Assembly (NCBI RefSeq): GCF_002909485.1 | Contig: NZ_PPXG01000002.1 | Coordinates: forward strand, 248,001-312,000 | Reading direction: 5' to 3' | Length of the DNA: 64,000 nt | Source: Stutzerimonas stutzeri | GTDB taxonomy: Bacteria; Pseudomonadota; Gammaproteobacteria; Pseudomonadales; Pseudomonadaceae | Shown here: positions 3 through 8,958 of the stretch, piece after piece | Numbering within the stretch: position 1 is the stretch's first letter | Layout of the letters: every line of letters begins with the position of its first letter | Notes under the pieces: generated by a model | Database searches by the model: none | What the model saw: only the letters and a program-made list of their open reading frames with translations | Told to the model about the DNA's origin: nothing | Position numbers and translations under genes: made by a program

Positions 3-1565
3 TCAATATAGATCGCGCCGGTAGCGGCCGGCTTCACGCAGCGCGGCGACCTGCTTTTGACCGAGCAGGCCGTGCAGTAGCGCGTCGACGTCCTCACCCA
101 TGCCCTTGAGGCTACCGCATACAAGCAGGCTTGCTCCCCCCTCGATCCAACTGCGCAACTCATCGGCCGCGTCGCGTAGCAGATGCTGCACGTAGACAGG
201 CTGAGCCTGATCTCGGGAAAAGGCCAGGTCGAGGCGGGCCAGATGGCCGCTACGCTGCCAGGCGCATAGTTCGCTCTCGAAGAACATGTCACAGGCGGCA
301 CTGCGTTCGCCGAACAGCAGCCAGTGGCCATGCTGCCCCAACTGCTGGCGCTCGTGCAGGTGGGCGCGCAGGCCGGCCAGACCGGTGCCGTTACCGATCA
401 GGATCAGTGGACCACTGTCGGCCTCCAGGCGAAAGGCCGGGTTGGCGCGGATGCGCAGGTCAATAGCAGCACCCAGCGTCGCGTGCTGGCAAAGCCAGCC
501 GGAACCCAGACCGAGATTGCCCACGGCATCCTGCTGCAGGCGTACCAGTAGCTCAAGCGCGCCGTCCGCGGGTAGCGAGGCGATCGAATAGTCGCGATGG
601 GGCAGGCGCGGCAGCGCTTGCAGAAGGGCATCGGCGTTCAGCCCGTGCAGGGGCCCCGGATCATCCGGTAGCCGGCAGCGCGCCAGCTGCTCGATCAGCG
701 ATTGACCCTCGCTGAGGATTTGTTGGCCTTCCAGTTCGAGCGCTCGTAGCAGCGCGGCGACCTTCTCAGGCGGCTGGCAGGGGCCTATTTCCGCGATATC
801 GCCGGCCTGCCAGTTGGGCAGTGGCACATCGGCCGGGGGGCGCAGCTGCAGGTGGAAAGCCGGGCGCCCCTGACTGCCGGGGTTCAGGCAATGCCGTGCC
901 TCCAGGCGCCAGCTCTGGTAGGCCGGCGCCTGCCAATCGGCGAAGTCTCGCTGACCCGCCAACAGGCCGAGCTGCTGCTGCCACTGGCGCAGTACGGTGG
1001 GATCGCAACGGTCGGCCTCGAGGCGGTCGAACAGCGGTCGAGCGCCGAGACGCTGCAGCTGGCTGTCCAGGCGATGGGCGAAACCGCAGAACTGCGGGTA
1101 ATGGCTGTCGCCTAGACCCAGCAGGGCGTAGTCGATCTGGCCCAGATCAATGCGAACGCCGTCCAGCCAGCGTTGGAAGCGGGCGGCATGGTCTGGCGCT
1201 TCGCCTTCTCCATAGGTGCTGGCCACCAACAACAAGCGCTGGCGCTTGGCGAGTCGCTCCGACGTCAGTGTGTCGATTGGCACGGCCTGGGCTTCAATAC
1301 CTGCCATGCGGAGCTGGCCCGCGCTGCGTTCGGCGATTTCGCGCGCCTGGCCGCCCTGGCTGGCGTAAGCGACCCAGAGTTCGCCGGTTTGGCTGAAGTC
1401 CGCACGTGGCTTGCGACTGAGAAAGCAGACGCCCAGCCAGGCGAGTACGGTCAGGCCAGCGCTGATCTCCCGTGGAGGTTGCAGCCACAGCAGCGCGCCA
1501 GCCAGCACCAGGCAGGCGAGCACGGGCCAGTAGCGCTGAAAGAGTGGGGTGGGTGAGGGTGTCAT
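3..1565 (-). CDS. Membrane-anchored CysJ-like flavoprotein reductase
   Basis: About 520 aa from ATG 1565; an in-frame TTG at 1577 would add four residues. Two hydrophobic segments lie in the first ~50 residues. A flavodoxin (FMN) domain follows at about 64-196, with a YASQGG phosphate loop and an ASTYGEGEAP stretch. An FAD domain carries RDYS at 324-327, and an NADPH domain carries LIGNGTGLAG near 390. This is the layout of the sulfite reductase alpha subunit, but no hemoprotein partner lies nearby. It is the last gene of a minus-strand cluster with a TonB receptor and a PepSY membrane protein. I infer that it feeds NADPH electrons to the PepSY protein for ferric-siderophore reduction. The stop codon lies at the very edge of the window. 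Confidence 0.85.
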   Translation of the reverse strand: MTPSPTPLFQRYWPVLACLVLAGALLWLQPPREISAGLTVLAWLGVCFLSRKPRADFSQTGELWVAYASQGGQAREIAERSAGQLRMAGIEAQAVPIDTLTSERLAKRQRLLLVASTYGEGEAPDHAARFQRWLDGVRIDLGQIDYALLGLGDSHYPQFCGFAHRLDSQLQRLGARPLFDRLEADRCDPTVLRQWQQQLGLLAGQRDFADWQAPAYQSWRLEARHCLNPGSQGRPAFHLQLRPPADVPLPNWQAGDIAEIGPCQPPEKVAALLRALELEGQQILSEGQSLIEQLARCRLPDDPGPLHGLNADALLQALPRLPHRDYSIASLPADGALELLVRLQQDAVGNLGLGSGWLCQHATLGAAIDLRIRANPAFRLEADSGPLILIGNGTGLAGLRAHLHERQQLGQHGHWLLFGERSAACDMFFESELCAWQRSGHLARLDLAFSRDQAQPVYVQHLLRDAADELRSWIEGGASLLVCGSLKGMGEDVDALLHGLLGQKQVAALREAGRYRRDLY

Positions 1566-1653
1566 GGTATCCAGCAATCAGCTGTAGCTCGGATGCAGTC
1601 CGGAATGGTCGCGACGACCATCTCCAGACTGCATCGAGTTACAGGTGCAAGGC

Positions 1654-2526
1654 TCAGGGTGCCAGCACTTCCAGAGTGGCGCTGTAGCTTGCGCGGCGCT
1701 CGGTGGCCGGCTTGCTCACGCCCTTGTCGGTAGTCAGTTCGGCCTCCAGCCAGTACATGCCGGCTTCAGGCCAGGTGATGCTGACCTTGCCGTCGGCATC
1801 GGTCTTGGCGTTGATCTCGCCCAGTTCGTCGCGATAGCGGTTGCCGCCCGGGATGACGCTGATCTCGATATCCGCAGCCGGTTTGCCGTCGAGCAGGAAA
1901 ATGAACTCGGCCGCCTCACCCGCAAACAGGTCGTTGGGGTGGGTGACAGGCTTGAGCTCCAGACCCACGCCGGTCGGTGCGAGGACTTCGGTAGTGGGCG
2001 CGCCGGAGGTCACGAATACTTCCATGCGGCTGTTGGTCTGGCTGACCTTGAGACCTTCTGCCTTGGCCGGGACGTCCTTGGCAAAGCTTTCGGCGGAACC
2101 CATCCAGCGGCGTGTCTCGCCCTTTTCCTTCCAGCTGGCAAACAGACCGCTGTTTGCGACCGCCAGCTTGTACGTTCCCTTCTGGCTCAGCTGCACGTCG
2201 AAGGTGCTGCGGTAACGGCCAACAGCGCCGTTCTGGGCGGATGCCTTCGAGCCGTCCGGCGCGATGATCTGCAACTCCGGCGTTGGGCGGCGCATGCCTG
2301 GCGGGCCGCCCGCAGGTGCCTGAGCCGCTTCGCCGATGCCCTTGAGGCGCATCGGAACGTGCTCGAAGTAGAACAAGTCGTTGGAGACGGCGGCGTCGAC
2401 GGTGATCCAAGGCTCTTCACCGGATAGCACCGTTGCCGAGGGCAGCATCCAGGCGCGGTGGGCCTGAGCCGAAAGCGGCAGGCAGACGGCGAGGGCCAGT
2501 GCGGTCCATTTGATGACGGGTTTCAT
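1654..2526 (-). CDS. DUF4198 periplasmic protein
   Basis: 290 aa. Start ATG 2526 has an AGGA about 8 nt upstream; an ATG at 2544 overlaps the previous stop but lacks a good site. The signal peptide probably ends at SAQA before HRAWMLPS. The HRAWMLPS opening followed by an Ig-like beta-rich body is typical of DUF4198, a family often found beside metal-uptake genes (NikM-like). The C-terminal part resembles a carboxypeptidase-regulatory or transthyretin-like fold (DADGKVSITWPEAGMYWLEA). It lies between DUF2271 and the flavoprotein in the iron cluster. Its exact role is unknown; a periplasmic metal or siderophore accessory function is inferred from context. Confidence 0.8.
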   Translation of the reverse strand: MKPVIKWTALALAVCLPLSAQAHRAWMLPSATVLSGEEPWITVDAAVSNDLFYFEHVPMRLKGIGEAAQAPAGGPPGMRRPTPELQIIAPDGSKASAQNGAVGRYRSTFDVQLSQKGTYKLAVANSGLFASWKEKGETRRWMGSAESFAKDVPAKAEGLKVSQTNSRMEVFVTSGAPTTEVLAPTGVGLELKPVTHPNDLFAGEAAEFIFLLDGKPAADIEISVIPGGNRYRDELGEINAKTDADGKVSITWPEAGMYWLEAELTTDKGVSKPATERRASYSATLEVLAP

Positions 2527-2540
2527 GGCGTGCTTCCTGT

Positions 2541-3050
2541 TCATTGGGTCAGGGTGAGGGTGATTGCGCCCAGCTCACTCTTGCCCTGGGCTTGATGGTT
2601 GGTGTTCTGCGTGGGAGGCCAGCTGAACGGAACGCGCAGCAGCTCGCGGCCGCCGACTTCGCGGGCCGCTTCGACCACCAGGCGGTATTCGCCAGCTTCC
2701 AGCGTCTTCAGGGGCGCCTGCTGATCCGAGAACTTCAGCGAGTGGCTGCCTACAGCGCGGGTGGCGCCGCTGACGCCATCGACCGGCATTTCCAGGCTGC
2801 GGCCGCTACGGCGCCACCATTGGCGCAGGTCCTTGAGCCATTTCTCACCTTCCTTGTCCTTGAGCTTGGTGTCGTACCACACCGCCAGGTTGGCAACATG
2901 GCTCTGATCCGGGCGCTCCAGCCAGATGGCGACGTAGGGGCGGTGGTACTCGGCGACATCCAAACGGGGAATTTCCACATCCAGCTGCATGTCCGCCGCG
3001 TATAGCGGGGCGCTAAGCAGGGTGAGGGGCAACAACAGGCGTTTACGCAT
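2541..3050 (-). CDS. DUF2271 periplasmic protein
   Basis: 169 aa, with AGGA just before ATG 3050. The signal peptide ends near LYAA. The body matches DUF2271: LDVEIPRLDVAEYHRPYVA, the IWLERPDQSHVANLAVWYD stretch and the W-rich KDLRQWWRRSGRS segment. Members usually sit beside PepSY proteins and DUF4198 genes in iron-uptake loci, as here. It starts 9 nt after the PepSY gene ends and its stop overlaps the first possible start of the DUF4198 gene, so translation is probably coupled. The biochemical function is not known. Confidence 0.8.
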   Translation of the reverse strand: MRKRLLLPLTLLSAPLYAADMQLDVEIPRLDVAEYHRPYVAIWLERPDQSHVANLAVWYDTKLKDKEGEKWLKDLRQWWRRSGRSLEMPVDGVSGATRAVGSHSLKFSDQQAPLKTLEAGEYRLVVEAAREVGGRELLRVPFSWPPTQNTNHQAQGKSELGAITLTLTQ

Positions 3051-3059
3051 GGGCAGTCC

Positions 3060-3653
3060 TTAATGAATGAAAAGCAGCGCCAGCAGCAGCGGAATCACCA
3101 GCCCCAGGCCAACCAGCGGCCAGGTAGTGGGACGATTGCTGGCGTGACGATGCAGAAGCAGCAGACCGGTGAGGCTGAACACCACACAGGCAACGGCAAA
3201 GAAGTCGATGAACCAGCTCCAGGCTTCGCCGGTATGGCGGCCTTTGTGCAGGTCGTTGAAATAGGCGATCCACCCGCGGTCGGTCGATTCGTATTCCAAC
3301 TCGCCGCTTTCCAGGCTCAGGCTCAGCCAGGCGTCGCCGCCGGGACGGGGCAGGGCGACATAGAGTTCGCCATCGCTCCACTCGGCGTCACGACCGGCCA
3401 GTCGTTGGTCCAGGGTATGTTCCAGCCATTGCTGCAGCTCGGCAGGCAAGCCGTCCTCTGGGGCGTCGGCCTGCAAACGGCTGAGCAACGACTCGGGCAA
3501 CTGTCCGCCGCGGGTTTCCACCAGCGGTTTGCTTTCGATCTGCCCAGCATGGTTGAGCGTGATGCCGGTTACCGAGAACAACAGCATGCCGACCAGGCAC
3601 AGGGCAGAACTGATCCAGTGCCATTGGCGCAGAGTGCCGAGCCAGAAATGCAT
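3060..3653 (-). CDS. PepSY-associated transmembrane protein
   Basis: 197 aa, AAGGA 5 nt before ATG 3653. There is an N-terminal membrane helix with flanking histidines (RQWHWISSALCLVG ... TLNHAG), a periplasmic PepSY-like region of about 100 residues, and then FNDLHKGRHTGEAWSWFIDF leading into two further helices with an LLLLHRHA motif. Paired histidines in such helices are candidate heme b ligands. Related proteins such as FoxB reduce ferric siderophores at the inner membrane. Placed directly after a TonB receptor and upstream of a CysJ-like flavoprotein, it is the likely transmembrane electron carrier of the cluster. Heme binding is inferred. Confidence 0.8.
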   Translation of the reverse strand: MHFWLGTLRQWHWISSALCLVGMLLFSVTGITLNHAGQIESKPLVETRGGQLPESLLSRLQADAPEDGLPAELQQWLEHTLDQRLAGRDAEWSDGELYVALPRPGGDAWLSLSLESGELEYESTDRGWIAYFNDLHKGRHTGEAWSWFIDFFAVACVVFSLTGLLLLHRHASNRPTTWPLVGLGLVIPLLLALLFIH

Positions 3654-3770
3654 GGTGGTCCTTGTCGTGCTGTGGGGTGGGCGAATTCTAGGGTGCCTGA
3701 CGGCGGCGATGCTAAAGATTTACAAACAGCATACATTCGCGTTTTGCTCGCGATCCGCAATGTGCGAGAA

Positions 3771-3796
3771 ACAACGAAGCCGGGATACTCCCGGCT
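3771..3796 (-). terminator. Hairpin after TonB receptor gene
   Basis: Perfect 8-bp stem AGCCGGGA/TCCCGGCT with a 3-nt loop at 3778-3796, followed on the minus strand by a T-rich stretch. It lies 19 nt past the receptor stop and before the PepSY gene, so it may terminate or attenuate transcription between the two. Confidence 0.55.
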
Positions 3797-3814
3797 CGTT
3801 TGGGCGCCTACGGA

Positions 3815-6046
3815 TTAGAAGGTGAAGTTGGCGGAGAGCCAGAGGCGACGACCTTCTTCCAGGGTGCCGCTGGTGGCAGCCGCCGACTGGATGTAGTCGG
3901 AGGCCCACCCCGTCGTGCCTGTGTTGGTGGTGTAGTAAGTGCCCTCGGTAAAGTCCTTGTCGAAAAGGTTGTAGATAGTTGCGTTGAAGGTGACGTTTTC
4001 CGAGGCTTTGAATGAGCCGCCAAGGTGGAACACTTCGTACGCTTTCAAATCTCCTGCAGCGTCATAAAGTGCCTGGTTTGCTGCCGTCAGGTTTTCGTAG
4101 CGATCAGTGAAGCGCGTCCGCTCGTCCCGGTACTCACCCTTGAACCATAGGTTCAGACGGTCTGTGGTCTGCCAGCTGAGCCGTGCATGAAGCATATGTT
4201 CTGGTGTGTTTGTCAGCGGGGCGCCTTTGTTTGCACCACTCTTTTGTTCGCTATCGGTGTAGGTGTAGTTCATGGCCAGCGCCCAGGCCGGTGCGAACTC
4301 CCAGCGCCCCGCCAGTTCAAGGCCTTGGGTAACGGCTTCGTCGACATTTACGCTTTGGGCGAAGGAATCTTGCGTAAAACCGCTGCCGAAGCTGACGCAA
4401 CCCGGCTGGTTGGGATTGGTTGCAGAGAAGCAGTTAGCGATCGGCGTTCCATCATCGATCTTGTCGTCGAACTTGTTATGGAACACGGTCGCGTTTGCAC
4501 TGAAGCCGCTGAGGTTGTCGAAGTAGACGCCGAGTTCGGTATTGGTGGTGATTTCCGGATCCAGATCCGGGCTGCCAACCGTGATGACCGCGCCCTGGCT
4601 GGTGACGCCGCTGATACCGTCGTGAAGCTGATTCAGCGTTGGCGTTTTGTATCCGCGGCTGACGCCACCTTTCATCGTCCAATTGTCATTGGTATTCCAG
4701 ACCAGATAAGCGCGTGGACTGATGTGGCCACCGAACGCCTCATGGTCTTCATAGCGAGCGCCCAGCGTCAAAGCCAGGTCATGACGTAGACGCCACTCGT
4801 CTTCGACGAACATCGCCCAGGACTTCTGCTGGAAATCGTCGTCGGCAATGCCGTCCGTGACCTTGGCATCCCAGTATTGCCCCCCAACAGTGAGTATGTG
4901 CGACTCCCCAACCGGGCTGACCAGTTTGGTATCGAGGATCAGGTCGGTGGATTTCAGCTCGCGGTCATCGCCGATGACGATCGATGGGTAGCCGGTGTAG
5001 GAGTTGCCGATAGGCGTACCAGGAATCGTGCGGCCGATGGTTTCGGTGGTGGTGTGCGTCAGGCTGCTATCCAGAGTGCCGAAACTGAAGCGCCCCGTGT
5101 GGCTAAGGGCAAACTGGTCGCGCTCGAAGCGCAGTTCGTCAGCATATCCGTTGGCTTTGGTCGGTGCGTCTACGGTGCAGCCATCAGTGGCGCTGCCGCC
5201 GTTTTTACCGTCGAGATTTCCTAACTGACAGTCGTCGTTATTGTAAACCTGACGGCCGCGCTCGAAATCCAGGGAGATGTCATGCGCTTCGTCAGGGGTA
5301 AGCGTTAGGCGGGCGCCGAGCACATGGTTGCGCCCCTCTACAGGTGAGGCCCCACGCTTGCTGACAGGGCTGTCATTATCGAAAGACAAATCAGACTCGG
5401 CGCGATCATACAAACTGCCCCGAACAGCGAGTCCGAGCAAGTTGTCAATGAGAGGGCCGCTGGCATAAAGGCTAGTGTTGCTGGTGTCGCCGTAATCTCG
5501 ATTTTCCTGGAAAGTATGGTCCAGGCTGACCGACGCGCCCCATTCTTTCGCGACTTTCTTGGTAATGATATTGACCACGCCGCCCATCGCATCCGACCCG
5601 TAGAGGGTCGACATTGGGCCGCGGATTACTTCGATCCGTTCAATGGCCGACATCGGGGGCATGAAACTCGTGGACGTTTCGTTGAAGCCGTTAGGGGTGA
5701 CGTTGCCAGCGGTGTTCTGCCGACGCCCGTCAATCAGGATCAATGTATAGTCGCTAGGCATGCCACGAATGCTGATATTCAGCCCGCCGGTCTTGCCTGT
5801 GCCCTGGCGGATATCGATGCCTTCCACGTCGTCCAATGCCTGCGCCAGATTGCTATAGCGCTTCTGCTGCATATCCTGCTGGCTGATGACACTGATGCTG
5901 GCAGGCGCCTCGGTGATCTTCTGTTCGAAGCCAGAGGCACTGACGACCATGTTCTGAAGTGCGACCGGTTCAGTCTGAGCGAAAGCCGTAAAACTGCAGC
6001 CAATCATGGCGCAGGACAGTGCGGTACGTGCGAAGGGGATAGACAT
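3815..6046 (-). CDS. TonB-dependent siderophore receptor (CirA/FepA type)
   Basis: 743 aa. Start ATG 6046 is chosen because AAGGAG lies 6 nt upstream and a signal peptide follows (MSIPFARTALSCAMIGC ... FAQ). The candidate TonB box is near LQNMVVSASG. A plug domain (ISVISQQDMQQKRYSNLAQAL, IERIEVIRGPMSTLYGSDAMGGVVNIITKK) is followed by a 22-strand-type barrel with the SRGYKTPTLNQL motif, ending in the usual terminal phenylalanine (SANFTF). The family imports ferric siderophores, mostly catecholates, across the outer membrane using TonB energy. A Fur-like site lies just upstream and the accessory reductase genes follow. The ligand cannot be read from the sequence. Confidence 0.93.
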   Translation of the reverse strand: MSIPFARTALSCAMIGCSFTAFAQTEPVALQNMVVSASGFEQKITEAPASISVISQQDMQQKRYSNLAQALDDVEGIDIRQGTGKTGGLNISIRGMPSDYTLILIDGRRQNTAGNVTPNGFNETSTSFMPPMSAIERIEVIRGPMSTLYGSDAMGGVVNIITKKVAKEWGASVSLDHTFQENRDYGDTSNTSLYASGPLIDNLLGLAVRGSLYDRAESDLSFDNDSPVSKRGASPVEGRNHVLGARLTLTPDEAHDISLDFERGRQVYNNDDCQLGNLDGKNGGSATDGCTVDAPTKANGYADELRFERDQFALSHTGRFSFGTLDSSLTHTTTETIGRTIPGTPIGNSYTGYPSIVIGDDRELKSTDLILDTKLVSPVGESHILTVGGQYWDAKVTDGIADDDFQQKSWAMFVEDEWRLRHDLALTLGARYEDHEAFGGHISPRAYLVWNTNDNWTMKGGVSRGYKTPTLNQLHDGISGVTSQGAVITVGSPDLDPEITTNTELGVYFDNLSGFSANATVFHNKFDDKIDDGTPIANCFSATNPNQPGCVSFGSGFTQDSFAQSVNVDEAVTQGLELAGRWEFAPAWALAMNYTYTDSEQKSGANKGAPLTNTPEHMLHARLSWQTTDRLNLWFKGEYRDERTRFTDRYENLTAANQALYDAAGDLKAYEVFHLGGSFKASENVTFNATIYNLFDKDFTEGTYYTTNTGTTGWASDYIQSAAATSGTLEEGRRLWLSANFTF

Positions 6047-6081
6047 GCGGGCTCCTTGTGGCCGTCTCGTTGGCGCCCGCA

Positions 6082-6096
6082 TGATAATCATTCGTA
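6082..6096 (-). promoter_or_regulatory. Candidate Fur box for iron cluster
   Basis: TGATAAT-C-ATTCGTA fits the 7-1-7 Fur pattern: the left half-site is perfect and the right matches 4 of 7. It sits about 36 nt upstream of the receptor ATG in an AT-rich stretch. Iron repression of the downstream cluster is inferred. Confidence 0.6.
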
Positions 6097-7110: not shown

Positions 7111-8364
7111 ATGTACGCATCCGTCCCGCTGTTGTCTGCCAGCCGGCAGAACCTTCGGCTTCTGACTCTTATACGCATCGTGGTGCTGGCTGCGCAGTCC
7201 GGCGCCGTGGGCGTGGCTTATGCAACCAAGTTGTTGACGCTGCCGTGGCTCGCGCTGGGCATTACGCTGGCCGTTTCGGCTGTGCTTTGTCTGGGCACCG
7301 CGTTGCGGTTGCGTGGCCCTTGGCCCGTTACCGAGCTTGAGTATGCCGTCCATTTGGGCTGCGATCTGATGATCCACAGCGCGCTGCTGTATTACTCGGG
7401 TGGCTCGACCAACCCCTTCGTCTCCTATTACCTCGTGCCGCTCACCATCGCCGCAGCAACCCTTCCGTGGCTGTATTCCATCGTGCTCTCCGGCTTGGCG
7501 CTACTGGGTTACACGCTGATGCTGGTCTGGTACGACCCACTTACTCTGCCGCCCTTCGAGCGAGCGACGCTGCAGGTCTACGGCATGTGGCTGAGTTTCG
7601 CGCTGGCGGCCGCGCTGATCACGTTCTTCGTCGCGCGCATGGCCGAACAGCTGCGCCGTCAGGAACAGCAGCAGGCCCAGCGCCGCGAGGAAAGCATGCG
7701 CGATCAGCAACTGCTCGCCGTGGCTACGCAAGCTGCCGGCGCCGCGCATGAGCTGGGTACTCCGTTGGCAACCATGAGTGTGCTGCTCAAGGAGTTGCGC
7801 CAGGAATACAAGGATCCGCAGCTGAGCGAGGATCTCGGCCTGTTGCAGTCGCAGGTCCAGCTGTGCAAGGAGAGCTTGCGACAGCTGGTCCGCGCTGCCG
7901 AGGCTGATCGTCGCCAAGCGGTGGTCGAGCAGACTGCTCGCGAGTGGGTCGACTCGGTGCTGCAGCGCTGGCACCTGATGCGCCCGGAGGCGACTTTCCG
8001 TTTTCATTGCGTCGGTTTAGGTAGCCCGCCCCGTTTGATGCCGCCAGCTGACCTCAGTCAGTCGTTGCTCAACCTGTTGAACAATGCCACCGACGCCAGT
8101 CCCGAGGATCTGGATATACGCCTCGACTGGGACGCGCAGTGGATCAGGCTGACCATTCGCGACCACGGGGCTGGGGTGCCGCTGGCCATTGCCGAACAGA
8201 TCGGCAGACCCTTCATCACCACCAAAGGCAAAGGTTTCGGCCTTGGTCTGTTTCTCAGTCAAGCCAGCGTCACGCGCGCTGGTGGCACAGTGAAGCTCTA
8301 CAATCACGAAGAAGGTGGCACACTGACCGAACTGCGCCTGCCGCATGGCTCGGTGCGCCCCTGA
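7111..8364 (+). CDS. roxS: Redox sensor histidine kinase RoxS (RegB/PrrB family)
   Basis: 417 aa; ATG 7111 is preceded by TTGGAG. An in-frame opening further upstream is non-coding read-through. Six membrane helices occupy about 20-190. The quinone-binding heptapeptide GGSTNPF is at 97-103, the phospho-acceptor His is H213 in AAHELGTPLATM, and C252 in VQLCKESL corresponds to the redox-active cysteine of RegB. The ATPase domain has LLNLLNNATDAS and GLGLFLSQA. RegB-type kinases sense quinone and redox state and control respiratory and redox genes; in Pseudomonas RoxSR acts on cyanide-insensitive oxidase and other targets. The response regulator gene follows at 34 nt. Confidence 0.93.
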   Translation: MYASVPLLSASRQNLRLLTLIRIVVLAAQSGAVGVAYATKLLTLPWLALGITLAVSAVLCLGTALRLRGPWPVTELEYAVHLGCDLMIHSALLYYSGGSTNPFVSYYLVPLTIAAATLPWLYSIVLSGLALLGYTLMLVWYDPLTLPPFERATLQVYGMWLSFALAAALITFFVARMAEQLRRQEQQQAQRREESMRDQQLLAVATQAAGAAHELGTPLATMSVLLKELRQEYKDPQLSEDLGLLQSQVQLCKESLRQLVRAAEADRRQAVVEQTAREWVDSVLQRWHLMRPEATFRFHCVGLGSPPRLMPPADLSQSLLNLLNNATDASPEDLDIRLDWDAQWIRLTIRDHGAGVPLAIAEQIGRPFITTKGKGFGLGLFLSQASVTRAGGTVKLYNHEEGGTLTELRLPHGSVRP

Positions 8365-8397
8365 TCCCGATCGTGAACAATGCGAGGAAATGCACAG

Positions 8398-8958
8398 ATG
8401 ACCGACGAGTTGCAGCAAGAGGGCGAAGAACAACCTCATCTGCTGTTGGTGGATGACGATCCGACGTTCACCCGGGTGATGGCTCGTGCCATGAGCCGCC
8501 GTGGCCTGCAGGTCAGCATCGCCGGTTCGGCCGAGGAGGGCCTGGCCCTGGCCAAGCAGGATATCCCCGACTATGCAGTGCTTGATCTTAAAATGGAGGG
8601 TGACTCGGGCCTGGTGCTGCTGCCCAAGCTGCTTGAACTGGATCCGGAGATGCGCGTGTTGATCCTGACCGGCTACTCCAGCATCGCCACCGCGGTGGAA
8701 GCGATCAAGCGTGGTGCTTGCAATTACCTGTGCAAGCCTGCTGACGCCGATGATGTGCTGGCGGCGCTGCTGTCGCAGCATGCCGATCTTGACAGCCTGG
8801 TGCCGGAAAATCCGATGTCTGTCGATCGCCTGCAGTGGGAACACATCCAGCGGGTGCTCAGCGAGCACGATGGCAACATTTCCGCTACCGCGCGTGCCCT
8901 GGGCATGCACCGGCGGACGTTGCAGCGCAAGCTGCAGAAACGTCCGGTAAGACGCTAG
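8398..8958 (+). CDS. roxR: Response regulator RoxR (RegA/PrrA family)
   Basis: 186 aa from ATG 8398, with GAGGAAA upstream; an alternative ATG lies at 8380. The receiver domain has the acidic pair in LLVDDDPTF and the phospho-acceptor D63 in AVLDLKMEGDSGL, then a short linker and a Fis-type helix-turn-helix (GNISATARALGMHRRTLQRKL) at the end. This layout is that of RegA/PrrA/RoxR. It receives phosphate from RoxS and controls redox-responsive genes. It forms an operon with roxS. Confidence 0.93.
   Translation: MTDELQQEGEEQPHLLLVDDDPTFTRVMARAMSRRGLQVSIAGSAEEGLALAKQDIPDYAVLDLKMEGDSGLVLLPKLLELDPEMRVLILTGYSSIATAVEAIKRGACNYLCKPADADDVLAALLSQHADLDSLVPENPMSVDRLQWEHIQRVLSEHDGNISATARALGMHRRTLQRKLQKRPVRR

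Follow-up and report, generated by a model that had tools for sequence, protein, structure and literature searches.

Gene clusters built around PepSY-like proteins form a described group of flavinylation systems, in which DUF2271 occurs in 2833 clusters and DUF4198 in 1500 and for which iron reduction has been proposed (Meheust et al. 2021, PMC8238504). In the same report, 231 PepSY-like clusters include a TonB receptor, ApbE is encoded in such clusters "frequently" but not always, and a DUF2271 protein from A. ursilacus is flavinylated by its ApbE at an [S/T]GA[S/T] site. A Caulobacter operon of this kind, CC3059-63, is upregulated 12- to 51-fold under iron limitation and in a fur mutant, and lacZ fusions and electrophoretic mobility shift assays are reported to show that it is bound by Fur and repressed by iron (PMC3751524). 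Insertions in this operon lower fitness in EDTA (PMC12004947), and its relatives in Alteromonas rise under iron limitation (PMC7190382). Here we analyzed a locus of five genes in Stutzerimonas stutzeri, located at positions 3 to 6096 of a 64,000-nucleotide stretch (the window) that corresponds to positions 248001-312000 of one contig in a 4.8 Mb genome. We give a probability of roughly three in four to the reading that this locus encodes a PepSY-like/DUF2271 flavinylation system that reduces iron in the periplasm, beside a ferric-catecholate-type receptor.

Gene content of the locus

Membership of the PepSY-like group is defined by a PF03929 or PF16357 protein in a flavinylation cluster, and here a PF16357 protein is encoded beside DUF2271. 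Judged by its sequence, the locus is a PepSY-like flavinylation system, and most of what it contains is already explained by work on that group. Matches to Pfam and NCBIfam bore out the order given in the first-pass annotation of this DNA (receptor, PepSY, DUF2271, DUF4198, flavoprotein), with all five genes on the minus strand. The features are as follows.

3815..6046, minus strand: TonB-dependent receptor, CirA/CfrA-like (ferric catecholate type); Pfam barrel (E = 2.8e-53) and plug (E = 9.5e-29)
3060..3653, minus strand: PepSY_TM_like_2 membrane protein, candidate heme b electron conduit; PF16357 (E = 3.1e-88)
2541..3050, minus strand: DUF2271 periplasmic protein, predicted ApbE-flavinylated electron carrier; PF10029 (E = 4.6e-53)
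2757..2780, minus strand: flavinylation site DGVSGATR, predicted acceptor Thr97, from sequence and alignments
1654..2526 (start may be 2544), minus strand: DUF4198 secreted beta-sandwich protein; PF10670 (E = 2e-57)
2458..2460, minus strand: predicted mature N-terminal His codon of DUF4198, in AQA/H context, by inspection
3..1565, minus strand: CysJ-like diflavin reductase with flavodoxin and NAD-binding modules; Flavodoxin_1 (E = 7.7e-27), NAD_binding_1 (E = 2.6e-6)
6077..6095, minus strand: Fur-box-like site ACGAATGATTATCATGCGG upstream of the receptor, 12/19 positions of the consensus
3777..3797, minus strand: terminator-like hairpin in the gap between receptor and PepSY, 9 pairs, 6 of them G-C

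The probable receptor start, judged by inspection, is 6046 (MSIPFARTAL...) rather than 6091, and the flavoprotein probably starts at the ATG at 1565. The PepSY, DUF2271, and DUF4198 genes are tightly packed, with 9 bases between PepSY and DUF2271, and DUF2271 and DUF4198 either overlap by 4 bases (DUF4198 start at 2544) or are separated by 14 (start at 2526). The receptor and PepSY genes are 161 bases apart and the hairpin lies inside this gap, so the receptor and the reductase genes may form two transcription units; terminator-like hairpins numbered 8 in the region, compared with 4.4 expected from shuffles. Positions 1566-1653 (minus strand), between DUF4198 and the flavoprotein, are filled by an inverted repeat, ATGCAGTC...GACTGCAT around ATGGTCGTCGCGACCAT, which is imperfect and by eye resembles the repetitive extragenic palindromic (REP) type.

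Proposed electron path and the proteins that would carry it

In the chain that we propose, NADPH would reduce the FAD/FMN flavoprotein on the cytoplasmic side of the inner membrane, and heme in the short PepSY protein would take up the electrons and carry them across. The heme would then reduce a covalent FMN on Thr97 of DUF2271, attached there by the ApbE encoded after nqrF. DUF2271 would in turn reduce periplasmic ferric chelates brought in by the neighboring receptor and by others, and DUF4198 probably holds the released metal before import. The path drawn earlier for this locus had omitted ApbE, the DUF2271-loading enzyme, which is encoded elsewhere in the genome.

DUF2271 was present in 42/56 genomes of the genus and in 65/398 genomes of a phylum sample (E <= 1e-10); in a class sample, 5/185 were over the Pfam cut-off and 13/185 had a match at E <= 0.001. 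We compared three sets of loci: S1, with 68 loci from 65 genomes of the phylum sample (DUF2271 E <= 1e-10, own locus included, ~7 kb either side); S2, with 13 further loci from the genus; and S3, the best 80 of at least 585 confirmed candidates among named PepSY loci. The sets share some genomes, and their counts are not summed. Neighbors were called with our own profiles or with single queries, and absence therefore means "not detected nearby"; two follow-up scans of the 65 DUF2271 genomes took in 41 and 19 of them. DUF4198 accompanied the short PepSY gene in 49/50 (S1), 13/13 (S2), and 79/80 (S3) loci, and the order PepSY-DUF2271-DUF4198 was found in 45/49, 13/13, and 76/79, respectively.

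The best computational evidence for the step from flavoprotein to PepSY protein comes from 12 S1 loci with a flavoprotein match and with neither a short PepSY protein nor DUF4198 (0/12 for the latter). Pfam placed PepSY_TM, Flavodoxin_1, and NAD_binding_1 in a single polypeptide in every one of these 12 loci, which argues that the flavoprotein passes its electrons to the PepSY protein. All 12 had been recruited via their DUF2271 match, and ApbE was nearby in 11.

The flavoprotein carries one hydrophobic segment near residue 12 and is thus probably membrane-anchored, in keeping with its earlier description as a membrane CysJ-like protein. It scored 240 bits against TIGR01931 (cysJ), below the cut-off of 668, and its sequence marks it as a CysJ-like diflavin reductase rather than CysJ itself. 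Among solved structures it comes nearest to cytochrome P450 reductases and the flavoproteins of sulfite reductase, with 6efv as the best PDB match (E = 2.2e-42). Alignment to these relatives showed that the SRDQ...YVQ residues of CysJ, which presumably contact the NADPH phosphate, are retained.

The PepSY protein (197 residues, PF16357) is nearest to that of S. xanthomarina (90%) among the named loci listed. It had been called His-rich, which holds in a mild form, with 9 His in 197 residues. An AlphaFold2 model (predicted local distance difference test, pLDDT, 93), built from an alignment (A3) of 53 sequences (63 matches minus 11 near-duplicates or own, plus own), has long helices at residues 2-34, 143-171, and 177-195 around an alpha/beta domain. 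An alignment of 63 sequences, ours among them, showed His12 and His136 in 63/63, His35 in 58/63, and His170 in 46/63. If the N terminus is inside, His35 and His136 would face the periplasm, and His12 and His170 the cytoplasm. A search of the sequence against solved structures gave no match better than E = 1.

The receptor and its regulation

The receptor scored 685 bits against NF010012 and 558 bits against CfrA in NCBIfam, both under the cut-offs, and its top solved relatives are colicin I receptors, at 329 (2hdf) and 328 bits; nine other solved chains listed for it reach at most 169 bits. The receptors of 14 relatives within the genus scored 848-1666 bits against it (self-score 1708). In 15/16 genus loci the PepSY gene has a receptor upstream, and the 16th had no receptor match above 300 bits. 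In S1, a recognized receptor of either searched kind was near 34/68 loci, a count obtained with two query proteins that miss other receptor types. The receptor differs between species, and the reductase core varies hardly at all.

These figures bear on a second explanation, in which the operon encodes a general periplasmic ferric reductase acting on weakly chelated Fe(III) from any route, with the adjacent receptor as interchangeable cargo. The wide spread of receptor scores in the genus, the one genus locus without a receptor, and the recognition of a receptor near just 34 of the 68 phylum loci are all in its favor, as is the Caulobacter operon, which in the available texts lists no receptor and in which insertions hurt growth in EDTA (PMC12004947, PMC3751524). 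However, the receptor keeps its place upstream of PepSY in nearly all genus loci, a Fiu-type receptor with a PiuC-type dioxygenase also recurs nearby, and two queries would understate how often receptors accompany the operon. We consider a general reductase possible, though not probable, and retain as our preferred reading a reductase beside a ferric-catecholate-type receptor.

The first-pass annotation had also linked the receptor to Fur; the score of the candidate site, 12/19, is not above chance on its own. A top-scoring Fur-like site fell 42-62 bases before the start codon in 15/15 receptor-bearing genus loci (250 bases searched), and this near-fixed position lends the site credit. There were ties: four of the 15 loci (L140-L143) had an equal-scoring site at -284 when 300 bases were searched, and one (L084) had an equal-scoring site at -32. 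In a wider set, 28/63 loci had an upstream Fur-like site that was reached by at most 2/40 shuffles. Sites upstream of the PepSY gene reached 9-13 of 19 positions. A single-site scan with the 19-base consensus failed to pick out the promoter of the receptor gene, either within the window or against shuffles; shuffles of the whole window reach 12-14 of the 19 positions.

Proposed flavinylation of DUF2271 by an ApbE encoded elsewhere

DUF2271 had been described as having no known job, a statement now outdated, since a DUF2271 protein has been reported to be flavinylated by ApbE (PMC8238504). The protein encoded here carries DGVSGATR (2780-2757), which contains the [S/T]GA[S/T] tetrad. The acceptor column was Thr or Ser in 55/55 (S1), 13/13 (S2; Thr), and 80/80 (S3) aligned DUF2271 sequences, where the S1 motif counts rest on 55 loci, recovered with a narrow DUF2271 profile of our own out of the 68 found with Pfam. 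The strict tetrad [ST]GA[ST] was present in 25/55, 9/13, and 62/80, respectively, and the variants include SSAT, SAAT, SGPT, and TGPT. Either the flavinylation motif in these samples tolerates more variation than the published consensus allows, or the variants may be unmodified.

No ApbE was found within the operon, and the genome's only match (contig C26) directly follows nqrF; a local ApbE is not required in the available text of PMC8238504. All 65 S1 genomes with DUF2271 contain ApbE, which was near the operon in 33/50 short-PepSY loci (S1), 0/13 (S2), and 53/80 (S3). The idea that a relaxed motif goes with a missing local ApbE was not supported: in S1 the strict/relaxed counts were 15/20 with a local ApbE and 10/10 without, and in S3 they were 44/9 and 18/9. 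In four loci (L120, L121, L123, L124), ApbE and DUF2271 share one open frame of 492-529 residues, with the tetrads ARET, TRPT, SRPT, and SGPT; these fused frames could possibly be a self-flavinylating form.

The distribution of ApbE raises the alternative that DUF2271 is unflavinylated in this strain and that PepSY reduces iron directly, as has been proposed for FoxB and VciB. In line with this, none of the 13 genus loci has ApbE nearby, the single match in this genome follows nqrF, and SAAT or SSAT replaces SGAT in 4/13 genus members. Since the acceptor Thr is nevertheless retained in 13/13 genus loci, ApbE is present in 65/65 genomes, and relaxation of the motif is unlinked to the local absence of ApbE, we consider an unflavinylated DUF2271 improbable and favor one flavinylated in trans.

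DUF4198 and the metal

The earlier statement that DUF4198 has no known job is likewise superseded by two published metal-binding relatives, IsDUF4198 and Zcp. IsDUF4198 from Ideonella (9GCB) is reported to bind Ni via its N-terminal His and His18 and to be stabilized most by Ni (PMC12537917). Structures of Zcp (9MHI-9MHO) hold Zn, Cu, or Co, and its gonococcal transcript is described as being under zinc/Zur regulation (PMC13343924), which would speak for zinc in that relative. Our model of DUF4198 (pLDDT 90) fits Zcp 9mhm (Z 19.8, root-mean-square deviation (rmsd) 2.9, 215 residues) and the Ni-bound 9gcb (Z 15.0, rmsd 4.6, 209 residues).

By inspection, a His directly follows the predicted signal peptide (AQA/HRAWM). 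This N-terminal His was present in 66/66 sequences (own included, L118 read by eye) and in 79/79 of S3, versus 79% reported family-wide. L118 first appeared as an exception (65/66; 52/53 in S1), which was an alignment artefact, its sequence reading AFAHNAW. The 66 DUF4198 references gave 64 usable sequences, then 54, of which 48 stand in alignment A1. By count, position 18 of the mature protein holds Trp; 9GCB did not turn up among the sequence matches, so this position need not correspond to His18 of IsDUF4198. Retention of the Zcp metal histidines was not supported: the comparison was between native and triple-mutant chains, and by eye the one mutated position that aligned (His in native Zcp) is non-His here, the other two falling outside the aligned stretch. 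In five genomes that also contain DUF2271 (L182-L186), DUF4198 paralogues keep the post-signal His and the His of column 202, and 5/5 have a gap at the FEH/FNH His (column 62) that is common in the PepSY-linked group.

From the operon context, the metal of DUF4198 in this setting would be iron. It is highly improbable that the operon instead serves nickel, zinc, or copper, a reading suggested by the Ni preference of IsDUF4198, the Cu, Zn, and Co in Zcp structures, the service of the Bordetella PepSY_TM protein CrpH to copper-dependent oxidases, and the drop of the DUF2271 and DUF4198 genes in a Caulobacter zur mutant (PMC4176598), but opposed by Fur binding and iron-limitation induction in Caulobacter (PMC3751524), by induction in Alteromonas (PMC7190382), by the catecholate-type receptors and the conserved position of the Fur-like site here, and by the available text of the Ni paper on the DUF4198 histidine brace (PMC12537917), which mentions neither DUF2271 nor PepSY nor siderophores.

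A stronger role can be proposed for DUF4198, namely that the short-PepSY/DUF2271 reductase has in it an obligate acceptor for ferrous iron, one that traps Fe(II) or an Fe-chelate and passes it to a non-Feo importer; we offer this speculatively and would sooner expect it to be wrong than right. The free N-terminal His site would trap Fe(II) as it forms and so favor NADPH-driven reduction of tight ferric chelates. Such a trap would account for the presence of DUF4198 beside nearly all of the short-PepSY reductases sampled and its absence from the 12 fused ones. Redox values put ferric enterobactin out of easy reach of NADPH at neutral pH. For this reason the substrates are more probably loose chelates, such as weaker mono- or bis-catecholates, and a ferrous trap would be of help. 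If the proposal is true, the published Ni and Zn DUF4198 proteins are relatives of an iron trap, and the fate of iron after its periplasmic reduction becomes testable with one protein.

Findings that weigh against the reading

A number of our findings, together with one published result, weigh against an iron reductase of this kind. FeoB_C had no match in the genome, with a profile that matched in 7/14 controls, and there is one FTR1 permease; with ApbE also outside the operon, the first-pass annotation was too strong in calling the chain "full". The Fur-like site taken alone is equaled in 7/40 upstream shuffles, and 35/63 loci of the wider set have no upstream Fur-like site that stands out from shuffles. 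In a Caulobacter zur mutant, CC3060 and CC3061 fall to 0.50 and 0.41, and other iron-linked genes, bfd and CC2927-28 among them, are lowered too (PMC4176598); because these other iron-linked genes drop alike, we take the effect to be indirect. For the PepSY protein, His170 is absent in 17/63 sequences, so two hemes are not assured; its model found no solved structure at Foldseek E <= 0.001, and the fit to FoxB 7abw (Z 5.7, rmsd 2.6, 78 residues) is weak and below the tool's stated noise level. The tetrad is relaxed in 30/55 (S1), 4/13 (S2), and 18/80 (S3) DUF2271 sequences, and no flavoprotein was detected near 17/50 short-PepSY loci in S1. The path from NADPH through flavoprotein and PepSY to periplasmic iron nonetheless keeps the backing of the domains, the 12/12 fusions, and the Fur-regulated Caulobacter operon. 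The siderophore-specific role once attached to it is not established, because the receptor varies and because of the 17 loci without a detected flavoprotein.

Surroundings of the operon

Just left of the window, on the opposite strand, lie three further genes.

L002:5772-9900: Fiu/PiuA-type receptor, dioxygenase, and dehydrogenase-like gene

The Fiu-type catecholate receptor scored 760.7 bits, above its cut-off of 686; the other two genes encode a PiuC/YbiX-type Fe(II) dioxygenase and an FMN-dependent alpha-hydroxyacid dehydrogenase-like protein, the latter below its cut-offs. A Fiu-type receptor with a PiuC-type dioxygenase was near the operon in 20/68 (S1), 9/13 (S2), and 26/80 (S3) loci. 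The Fiu/PiuA-dioxygenase pairing itself is already published (PMC12004947), and in the available literature on this pairing we found no mention of its occurrence near a PepSY/DUF2271 reductase. To the right of the receptor is a SIMPL-domain protein, and at 7111-8958, on the strand opposite the receptor, are an ActS/RegB-type kinase and an ActR/PrrA-type regulator, both below NCBIfam cut-offs. Elsewhere in the genome, PF03929 PepSY_TM has six strong matches (two on contig C24 and one each on C22, C25, C1, and C27), which suggests several reductase or permease routes and makes redundancy likely.

Comparison with known systems

In the Caulobacter crescentus operon CC3059-CC3063 (CCNA_03155-03159), the genes for PepSY, DUF2271, DUF4198, and the CysJ-like flavoprotein are ordered as they are here; we take CC3059, a "transporter" in PMC3751524, to be the PepSY gene because of its description in PMC12004947. 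In the operon as described, ApbE is inside and no receptor is among the five genes, whereas the Stutzerimonas genes follow a CirA-like receptor and have their ApbE elsewhere. FoxB, HiuB, and FpvG are PepSY-family proteins with conserved His that are linked to periplasmic siderophore-iron release, as proposed here, and FoxB and HiuB are encoded beside TonB receptors, like the PepSY gene of our locus; they have at least four transmembrane segments, and DUF2271 does not appear in the available texts (PMC13038864, PMC13001220). The PepSY protein studied here differs in being half their size, with three helices, and in having a separate flavoprotein and DUF2271.

The fused PepSY_TM-flavodoxin-NAD_binding proteins contain the same modules as our locus in one chain near DUF2271, but with a full-length PF03929 PepSY in place of PF16357, and 12/12 are without DUF4198 within ~7 kb either side. 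We take these fusions to be PiuB-like. IsDUF4198 and Zcp share the DUF4198 fold with the protein described here at 15-18% identity, and the alignment with 9GCB starts at model His23, matched to chain residue 1, the metal-binding N-terminal His. The metals reported are Ni for IsDUF4198 and Zn, Cu, or Co for Zcp, compared with the iron that we propose.

With these comparisons DUF2271 and DUF4198 are no longer without a role, and the literature on flavinylated reductases is joined to that on N-terminal-His metal proteins. The available text of Meheust et al. 2021 (PMC8238504) does not take up loci like that of Stutzerimonas, which are linked to a receptor and lack a local ApbE. What appears particular to this member of the group is its receptor-linked, trans-ApbE arrangement, together with DUF4198 as a candidate metal partner.

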